A DNA stretch of 64,000 nucleotides from Allorhodopirellula heiligendammensis. Its GTDB lineage: Bacteria; Planctomycetota; Planctomycetia; Pirellulales; Pirellulaceae. Every line of letters starts with the position of its first letter. The stretch's first letter is position 1. A program made the position numbers and the translations under genes. Positions 48,819-50,279 of the stretch are shown piece by piece. The notes under the pieces were generated by a model that searched no databases, was not told the origin of the DNA, and saw nothing but the letters and a program-made list of their open reading frames with translations. The DNA is taken from positions 1,291,739-1,355,738 of the forward strand of contig NZ_SJPU01000002.1 in assembly GCF_007860105.1 (NCBI RefSeq), read 5' to 3'.

Positions 48819-49370
48819 TTATATCTTCTCTCGAATCATCGAAACGGCGACCCCCAGGAGCGAGTCAGCGACTTGACGATCGTCCCAGGTCCGCAGTGCG
48901 ACGTGGCCGCCAGGGAATTGGCAGACCACGAGGTCGCCCTCCTGACCTTCGCGGTTTTGCTCGACAACGAGATAGTCGCCGTCCAAGATGCCCTGCTGCG
49001 CGAAGGCGCCACCGGAGACCTGAACCAGAACTCGGTCGCCGGTTGCGAGCGACTTTCCCAAGTCGATCACTTGAGGTGAATCCAGATTCAATGGGGCGGG
49101 ATGTTCCGAAACGATACCCAGCAGCGGCAGGGCGGTGGTACTGCGGGCGTGCTCGCCAGTCAACTCGATCGCCCGCGACTTGTTCGCTTTCCGCGTGATC
49201 AAGCCCTTTTTTTCCAACGCCCGAAGATGGCACATCACGCCGTTGGGGCTTTTAATGCCAAAATGCTCCCCGATTTCGCGAACTGTCGGACCATATCCAC
49301 GATCTTGGATCAGCGAGCGGATTAGCTCGTAGACATGCCGTTGGCGTTCTGTCAGTTGAGGCGTAGCCAT
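48819..49370 (-). CDS. LexA-like repressor lacking cleavage site and Ser-Lys dyad
   Basis: 183 residues. The N-terminal winged helix is intact and LexA-like (LTERQRHVYELIRSLIQDRG, FGIKSPNGVMCHLRALEKKG). The C-terminal S24/LexA fold is recognisable (LPLLGIVSEHP, VSGGAFAQQGILDGDYLVVE, GDLVVCQFPGGHVALR), but alignment with E. coli LexA gives Glu89-His90 at the Ala-Gly cleavage site, Ala122 for the nucleophile Ser and Leu159 for the catalytic Lys. The last strand region is also shorter. It should therefore not self-cleave after RecA activation. DNA binding and dimerisation could remain. A separate canonical LexA may exist elsewhere in the genome. Confidence 0.9.
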   Translation of the reverse strand: MATPQLTERQRHVYELIRSLIQDRGYGPTVREIGEHFGIKSPNGVMCHLRALEKKGLITRKANKSRAIELTGEHARSTTALPLLGIVSEHPAPLNLDSPQVIDLGKSLATGDRVLVQVSGGAFAQQGILDGDYLVVEQNREGQEGDLVVCQFPGGHVALRTWDDRQVADSLLGVAVSMIREKI

Positions 49371-49490
49371 AAAGTTTCATGGGCGAGAAATTCGATCACG
49401 AGTTCCTTAGCATACTATCCCTTCCCCCCTGTCGGGATAAGTGCCTCTTTATTTCTCTTTTGCAGATTCATCCTCTCCGGCGGCCCCGAT

Positions 49491-50279
49491 TTAGCCCCCG
49501 AGACCACCCCAATAATAGAGCGTGAAGACGGCGCCGACGGGGATGCACCAGTAGGCAAACCAGTGCAGGCGATCCTCTTGGCTCCAGCGAATCAGCCATT
49601 TCAGGGCAGCGATTCCAACGAGAAATGCCACGAGAGCTCCGATGAGTAGGGTCAACAGCGGCAGCTCGCTGGCCGCTTCGCTGCCGTCAACGAGATCTTT
49701 GATCGCCAGCGTCACCGCTCCGCATATTGCCGGAATCGCCAGCAGAAACGAAAACGTAACCGAGTCCTCCTTGCTTAATCCCAGCAAACGTCCAGCGAAT
49801 ATCGTCGAACCACTCCGGCTGATCCCGGGCAGAATCGCGACGGCTTGGAAACATCCCACCACGAACGCGCCCATCCAACTCAGTTGGGTGTAGCGTTGGG
49901 CGCGTTTGGGAAGCTTGCCCAGTCCCAGCAACAAGATGCCCGTCAAGATTAGCATCGGTGCCGCGACGGCGGGCGACTCGGTGAGCCACGGAAAACCTTT
50001 CTTGATCGTCAGGCCAATCACGACAGCGGGTACTGTACCGACCACCATCAGCCCAATGACCCGGCGATCGCGGGTTAGCAAATCGAGGATCCGCCGCCAG
50101 TAGACGACGAGAATCGAACCGAGGGTGCCGGCATGCAGGATGATTACCAGCGTCGCCGATTCATCGAGTCCGCCCAGCAGATCGTTGAGGATCACGAGGT
50201 GACCTGACGAGCTGATCGGCAGAAACTCCGCGATCCCCTGGACGACGGCAAGGATGAAAACACGTAAAAGGTCGGTCAC
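49491..50279 (-). CDS. uppP: Undecaprenyl-diphosphatase
   Basis: 262 residues, membrane protein. It removes one phosphate from C55-PP during peptidoglycan and glycan recycling. Motifs: VQGIAEFLPISSSGHLVI (13-30) and AILPGISRSGSTIFAGRLLG, both typical of BacA/UppP, plus about eight hydrophobic segments. It is divergent from the DUF368 gene. Confidence 0.94.
   Translation of the reverse strand: MTDLLRVFILAVVQGIAEFLPISSSGHLVILNDLLGGLDESATLVIILHAGTLGSILVVYWRRILDLLTRDRRVIGLMVVGTVPAVVIGLTIKKGFPWLTESPAVAAPMLILTGILLLGLGKLPKRAQRYTQLSWMGAFVVGCFQAVAILPGISRSGSTIFAGRLLGLSKEDSVTFSFLLAIPAICGAVTLAIKDLVDGSEAASELPLLTLLIGALVAFLVGIAALKWLIRWSQEDRLHWFAYWCIPVGAVFTLYYWGGLGG

Follow-up and report, generated by a model that had tools for sequence, protein, structure and literature searches.

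Predicted loss of self-cleavage in the LexA of Allorhodopirellula heiligendammensis and its relatives in Rhodopirellula sensu lato

LexA1, the LexA of Allorhodopirellula heiligendammensis, most probably acts as a non-cleavable, constitutive DNA-binding protein uncoupled from the SOS response, a reading to which sequence comparison leads us to assign a probability of roughly 0.78. Cleavage of LexA is the textbook SOS switch, and a LexA that cannot cut itself cannot be switched off by RecA. The protein is encoded at 48819..49370 on the minus strand of the window, the whole stretch of 64,000 nucleotides that was analysed (contig NZ_SJPU01000002.1, positions 1,291,739 to 1,355,738). A self-cleaving SOS repressor has a scissile Ala-Gly (or Cys-Gly) bond, a Ser-Lys dyad, and LexA boxes at its own promoter and at SOS genes. 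LexA1 has neither the bond nor the dyad (Ala122, Arg160), and boxes at the lexA and imuA promoters were not found in the window's genome.

The lexA open reading frame is intact, starts with ATG, and encodes 183 aa; its assignment draws on Pfam and NCBIfam matches, searches of its own genome, and the predicted fold. Both the LexA winged helix and the S24-like C-terminal domain are present. In the Pfam search, the match to PF01726 (LexA_DNA_bind) scores 83.9 bits, and that to PF00717 (Peptidase_S24) lies barely above the cut-off (24.2 bits against 23.3) and is partial, covering profile positions 22–80 of 116. The NCBIfam lexA profile TIGR00498 is matched with 118.6 bits over profile positions 3–164 of 203, above its cut-off of 110.95. 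The winged helix spans residues 5–67 (49170..49358, minus strand; Pfam, alignment, and dN/dS), and its residues 41–49 (SPNGVMCHL) are identical across all 34 aligned sequences.

All nine distinct PDB sequences that match LexA1 at E 0.001 are LexA. A structure model, a step that the first-pass annotation had recommended, was built with AlphaFold using 34 sequences of the family (mean pLDDT 84.2, pTM 0.63), and Foldseek ranks 1–15 for this model are LexA entries. The whole-chain TM-scores against LexA structures are 0.36–0.52, so that the fold match concerns the two domains, while their placement relative to each other is not reproduced. Among the five best structural matches are 1jhf and 1jhh, the G85D and S119A mutants of E. 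coli LexA. LexA1 is thus predicted to fold as a LexA, and it presumably also dimerizes and binds DNA.

The neighborhood of the gene is likewise that of its relatives. The adjacent uppP (undecaprenyl-diphosphate phosphatase; 49491..50279, minus strand), assigned by an NCBIfam match and synteny, matches TIGR00753 with 192.7 bits, below the 217.5 cut-off of that profile. In 10 of the 12 loci compared, cleavage-dead and canonical ones both, at most 0.45 kb separates it from lexA; the distance in Laterigemmans is 1.8 kb, and uppP was not found in the 16-kb stretch around lexA in one further genome (G011). In the LexA tree, the window's genus, Rhodopirellula sensu lato in the GTDB sense (13 genomes), is monophyletic. 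Because of the TIGR00498 match, the LexA fold matches, and the shared uppP neighborhood, LexA1 is by orthology the regular LexA of this family, inherited vertically.

When aligned with E. coli LexA and as many as 118 LexAs of the family, LexA1 has Glu89-His90 (codons GAA CAT; 49101..49106, minus strand) where the scissile Ala-Gly lies (Ala84-Gly85 in E. coli) and Ala122 (codon GCC; 49005..49007, minus strand) in the position of the nucleophile Ser (E. coli Ser119), both as the first-pass annotation had proposed. Its third substitution, Leu159 for the catalytic Lys, is off by one: Leu159 aligns with the hydrophobic residue preceding Lys, and the Lys itself (E. coli Lys156) aligns with Arg160 (codon CGG; 48891..48893, minus strand), the segment reading VALR160TW in LexA1, ATLKYW in relatives, and EVTVK156RL in E. 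coli. The comparison with planctomycete LexAs, also suggested there, leaves neither Ser nor Lys at the active site. The distal peptidase domain is shortened, as had been noticed, the segment that links the Lys strand to the last strand being about 20 residues shorter than in canonical relatives. The last strand (residues 170–180; 48831..48863, minus strand) is kept, with G173 and R180 invariant in the alignment and a strand at residues 170–179 in the model; we take it to be the counterpart of the dimer strand in E. coli LexA. By sequence, the active site of LexA1 is predicted to be dead and self-cleavage to be lost.

The losses extend throughout the genus. A search of 241 genomes gave a family LexA match in 192, and 118 LexAs, one per genome, were examined, covering every member of the genus, its closest neighboring genera, and a selection from the remainder. 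A lexA ortholog with an intact reading frame occurs in 13/13 genomes of the genus. Scissile Gly and catalytic Lys are both lost in all 13, as well as in all three LexAs of genus g14 and all three of genus g38. Outside these 19, 98 of 99 LexAs keep Ala-Gly or Cys-Gly together with Ser and Lys, the sole exception (G035) having a Ser-Gly site with Ser and Lys retained, which brings the non-canonical LexAs to 20 of 118. The Lys is replaced by Arg in all 13 members of the genus, by Ala in g14, and by Arg, Cys, or Gly in g38. A sequencing error could hardly account for the changes, given that both residues, Gly and Lys, are missing in each of the remaining 12 genomes of the genus; with purifying selection on the gene besides, we reject such an error and a pseudogene alike.

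The Ser persists in 16 of these 19 proteins; the exceptions are the window's genome and G125, both with Ala, and G119, with Thr. This retention, the uniform Arg for Lys in the genus, and a RecA above the family cut-off in 30/30 genomes searched would suit a LexA1 that still responds to RecA, whether through some remaining Ser/Arg chemistry, through cleavage elsewhere in the protein, or with the help of a host protease. In other LexAs, Arg for Lys might retain slight activity, and with Ser kept, weak activity might persist in the Rhodopirellula baltica branch. The LexA1 of the window lacks the Ser too, however, has no Ala-Gly bond, and matches the S24 domain only in part, which makes RecA responsiveness highly improbable here.

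Two independent losses of the self-cleavage features are likely. In a species tree of RpoB and RecA from 30 genomes, the window's genus has the canonical genus g12 as its sister (support 98/96), g14 and g38 form a separate clade (100/99), and parsimony needs two changes. Forcing all proteins with the losses into one clade is borderline on these two genes (p-AU 0.051) and is rejected once stretches of RpoC and ImuB are added (p-AU 0.003; g12 sister 99/98), in a four-gene set from which RpoC is missing for one genome (G106) and ImuB for eight. The two losses are considered likely because g12 is canonical and sister to the genus and because a single clade is rejected on four genes; a single ancestral loss common to all is disfavored by the same tests. 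Rather than being a peculiarity of a single gene, the losses are fixed in the genus, with a second loss likely in g14 and g38.

Substitution patterns indicate that the protein is maintained. In Nei-Gojobori pairs, many of them with dS near or at saturation, dN/dS of the winged helix is 0–0.042 among LexAs with the losses (finite dS in 12 of 14 pairs), and three species pairs show no winged-helix replacement at all. For the C-terminal domain the values are 0.03–0.22 in these proteins and 0.028–0.059 in canonical LexAs (finite dS in 3 of 6 pairs). Judged by these ratios, constraint acts on LexA1 as a DNA binder and, less strongly, on its C-terminal domain. Purifying selection on the winged helix is strong. 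The same numbers bear on the alternative that LexA1 is a decaying pseudo-regulator which has lost its function and whose gene is on the way out. The long branch leading to the genus in the midpoint-rooted LexA tree (0.77), the shortened C-terminal domain, and the failure to find boxes in the window's genome would be expected of such decay, but intact frames throughout the genus, the constraint on both domains, and the preserved LexA fold and last strand make it very unlikely.

The targets of LexA1 were approached with a 14-bp box matrix built from 21 boxes at the lexA promoters of more distant genera, each genus contributing one; most of these boxes have the form TGTAC-N4-GTATA. In the 150 bp upstream of the window's lexA, no family LexA box was found (best score −6.3, p 0.96), nor was one found over the same distance in the sister genome G045 (4.2, p 0.15) or in 6/6 genomes of the R. 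baltica branch (−7.4 to −1.5). Five other members of the genus carry box-like sequences 133–148 bp upstream of lexA (7.7–10.3). A box is present within 150 bp in 6/6 genomes of g14 and g38 (7.8–9.5), 2/2 of g12 (9.7), 3/3 of g29, and 19/22 of g46 (7.0–10.2). Hence, the LexA target set in g14 and g38 probably still includes the lexA promoter itself. Low scores at lexA also occur with canonical LexAs, namely in 11 of 12 genomes of g37 and 5/5 of g39.

All 13 g46 and g12 genomes examined carry a box at imuA, in the mutagenic-repair (mutasome) operon imuA-imuB, immediately ahead of a conserved TAGCA(T) (12 score at least 8; G208 scores 7.3). The p values of single promoters are modest (0.005–0.09), and shuffled imuA stretches give a mean of 0–1.2 chance matches of at least 8 per region, so that the position of the box matters. 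In the imuA stretch of all five more distant canonical genomes, the matrix has a match scoring 11.5–17.3, whose position relative to imuA was checked for G109. No imuA box was found in any of 17 genomes whose LexA has lost Gly and Lys (12 of the genus including the window's, two of g14, three of g38; the G106 stretch is truncated). G045 was left out of this count since it gave no match to the IMS domain, in a search that missed ImuB in other genomes as well. The box is also absent from the imuA promoter in seven genomes with canonical LexA (5/5 of g37, G055, and G066; the G038 stretch is truncated), two of the five g37 genomes having one box match about 1.1 kb away from that promoter. Upstream of recA, inspection by eye of 30 genomes revealed no TGTAC-type box, the stretches of G106 and G013 not including the promoter. 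Three extra matches to the IMS domain of Y-family polymerases were observed in the window's genome (C1:880095, C12:9-359, and C24:3-212; loci L318, L319, and L320), two of them at contig starts and perhaps copies of a repeated mobile element.

Because family LexA sites were not found at imuA or lexA, LexA1 is unlikely to repress either gene now. Of the earlier prediction of a constitutive repressor, the non-cleavable DNA binder stands as the best-supported part, but repression of these two promoters does not follow from the sites found, and the other option named there, release by a non-proteolytic signal, stays conjectural. Since canonical genomes also occur without boxes, the link between box loss and cleavage loss is permissive at most.

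The region between lexA and uppP (49371..49490, minus strand), which lacks a family LexA box in the matrix search, was also compared with the upstream regions of relatives. The element TCAAAGTGAT lies upstream of lexA near the likely −35 region in 10 of the 13 genomes of the genus, with a variant in G124, and is absent from this position in the window's genome and in G045. In G115, a longer TCAAAGTGAT pattern with at most one mismatch has its sole genome-wide match at lexA. As a candidate for a new LexA box the element is unsupported, its half-site spacing differing from that of the LexA box.

No second LexA was found in the window's genome (7.18 Mb, assembly 97.6% complete). It yielded one PF01726 and one PF00717 match, both LexA1, and no other, so that the search for a canonical lexA proposed by the first-pass annotation came back empty at this completeness. 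A second LexA with intact VKAG, GDSMKD, and TVKRL motifs, LexA2, is very similar across genera; among the 13 genomes of the genus it was seen in G126 only, in two copies (one scoring 174.7 bits against TIGR00498), with one weak hit in G119 besides, and it was not found in the window's genome. In G115, we also observed a 298-aa protein with a LexA-like winged helix (L482:353-1249, minus strand) in which, by eye, the LexA-type C-terminal domain is absent; its remainder presumably resembles pRiA4b ORF-3 proteins.

A different sequence marks the imuA region of the genus. The palindrome TTTGCTAGCAAA occurs there exactly in 12/12 genomes of the genus with an imuA region, against 1/13 of g46 and g12, 1/3 of g38, and 0/2 of g14. 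Genome-wide, it is found 4–12 times in each of nine genomes of the genus, always above its reversed-pattern control (0–5), and 0–4 times in 14 other genomes, against controls of 0–6. Contexts were read for a subset of sites. TTTGCTAGCAAA lies upstream of six of seven closely similar lexA2 genes, namely both G126 copies (L046:1384-2109, plus strand; L048:1354-2079, minus strand) and those of G011, G111, G036, and G063, and not upstream of that of G013 (L472), the remaining loci being L431, L470, L471, and L473. It is absent at four more distant second LexAs (L474, L476, L477, and L481). In the window's genome, it stands 110 bp upstream of an integron integrase near the end of contig C4 (L428:943-2328, minus strand; TIGR02249, 405.9 bits). 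In other bacteria, integron integrases can come under the control of LexA (PMC3108266). TTTGCTAGCAAA further precedes dnaA in four genomes of the genus (dnaA of the window's genome was checked by Pfam) and, in two g37 genomes, sits in the interval from recA to a helicase-like ORF.

Another recurrent neighbor is an XRE repressor followed by an M78 (IrrE/ImmA-like) peptidase (for example L439:162-1261, minus strand, and L432:1868-2967, plus strand). The XRE protein is 95–100% identical in eight genomes of several genera, for which reason the pair looks mobile, and TTTGCTAGCAAA lies upstream of seven of the eight near-identical copies. No near-identical pair was found in the window's genome, where the best hit has 33% identity. 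Neither lexA2 nor this pair can therefore be put forward as the imuA regulator there, since neither was found. A 152-aa protein beside one TTTGCTAGCAAA site, considered as a WYL regulator, was discarded, having matched nothing in Pfam up to E 10.

These contexts raise the alternative that damage control was handed to another regulator acting through TTTGCTAGCAAA, whether LexA2, the XRE/M78 pair, or a further factor, with LexA1 as a leftover. Such a handover competes with an important role for LexA1, not with LexA1 being cleavage-dead. Its attraction lies in the near-restriction of the imuA palindrome to the genus when set against g46 and g12, its enrichment over control in all nine genomes, and its recurrence at lexA2, the integron integrase, XRE/M78, dnaA, and the interval between recA and the helicase-like ORF. 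Against it, neither candidate regulator was found in the window's genome, counts in the 14 other genomes are 0–4 against controls of 0–6, and the four distant second LexAs lack the palindrome. Moreover, TTTGCTAGCAAA also occurs within ORFs and upstream of others that by eye resemble sugar-metabolism genes, while one repeat accounts for 4 of the 12 sites in the window's genome; because of such sites it may be an unrelated operator. We regard the handover as possible yet unlikely, and TTTGCTAGCAAA as a replacement imuA operator is a lead, not a result.

For the preferred reading, a non-cleavable LexA1 uncoupled from SOS, a sequence of events can be envisaged, which we infer together with the absence of cleavage and the DNA binding themselves. 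SOS promoters such as that of imuA-imuB would first have shed their LexA boxes, after which self-cleavage would no longer have been required. Loss of the scissile Gly and of the Lys would have come next, and that of the Ser last, the retention of Ser in most of the affected proteins being offered as the basis for this order. What remains may be a constitutive repressor, or one tuned by a ligand or modification, with a small non-SOS target set. The distribution of boxes fits an escape of the targets before the loss of cleavage and does not prove it. More doubtful is a broader scenario, in which two lineages independently dismantled the RecA-LexA proteolytic switch and kept LexA as a DNA binder, and in which the mutasome, dnaA, and the integron integrase of Rhodopirellula are run from TTTGCTAGCAAA by an unrecognized damage regulator that mobile elements also tap.

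The reading predicts that the ordinary LexA cannot be cut in a whole cultured genus, to which the model planctomycete Rhodopirellula baltica is assigned. In most of its genomes searched, a cleavable LexA was not found, and close relatives keep the switch, providing a natural before-and-after comparison for the rewiring of a stress regulon. Mutagenic repair and integron activity would then be either constitutive or under a control not yet recognized. In the literature searched, which mostly excluded subscription journals and included part of PMC8565304, we found no description of a cleavage-dead Rhodopirellula LexA. PMC3108266 states that planctomycete LexA does not recognize the E. coli motif.

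Known systems place LexA1 in context. The canonical LexAs of the Pirellulaceae Rubripirellula obstinata and Planctomycetes bacterium K23_9 share with LexA1 the nearby uppP and a very similar winged helix but, unlike it, keep A-A-G, GDSM, and LK. The E. coli G85D and S119A proteins (1jhf and 1jhh) are, like LexA1, folded despite a changed scissile Gly or Ser; they are laboratory mutants, whereas LexA1 belongs to a natural lineage. The comparison with non-cleavable cyanobacterial LexAs drawn in the first-pass annotation is apt, and LexA of Synechocystis sp. PCC 6803 comes closest. According to PMC3091678, its scissile dipeptide has become Gly-Gly and its Ser has become Asp on a long branch; it is thus, like LexA1, a LexA ortholog with replaced dipeptide and Ser. 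According to PMC7567884, it represses non-SOS genes and is possibly tuned by dephosphorylation of Ser173. In contrast to this case, a single cyanobacterium among those of PMC3091678, the Lys is lost in all 19 proteins described here, whole genera are affected, a second origin is probable, and the mutasome operator has been lost as well.
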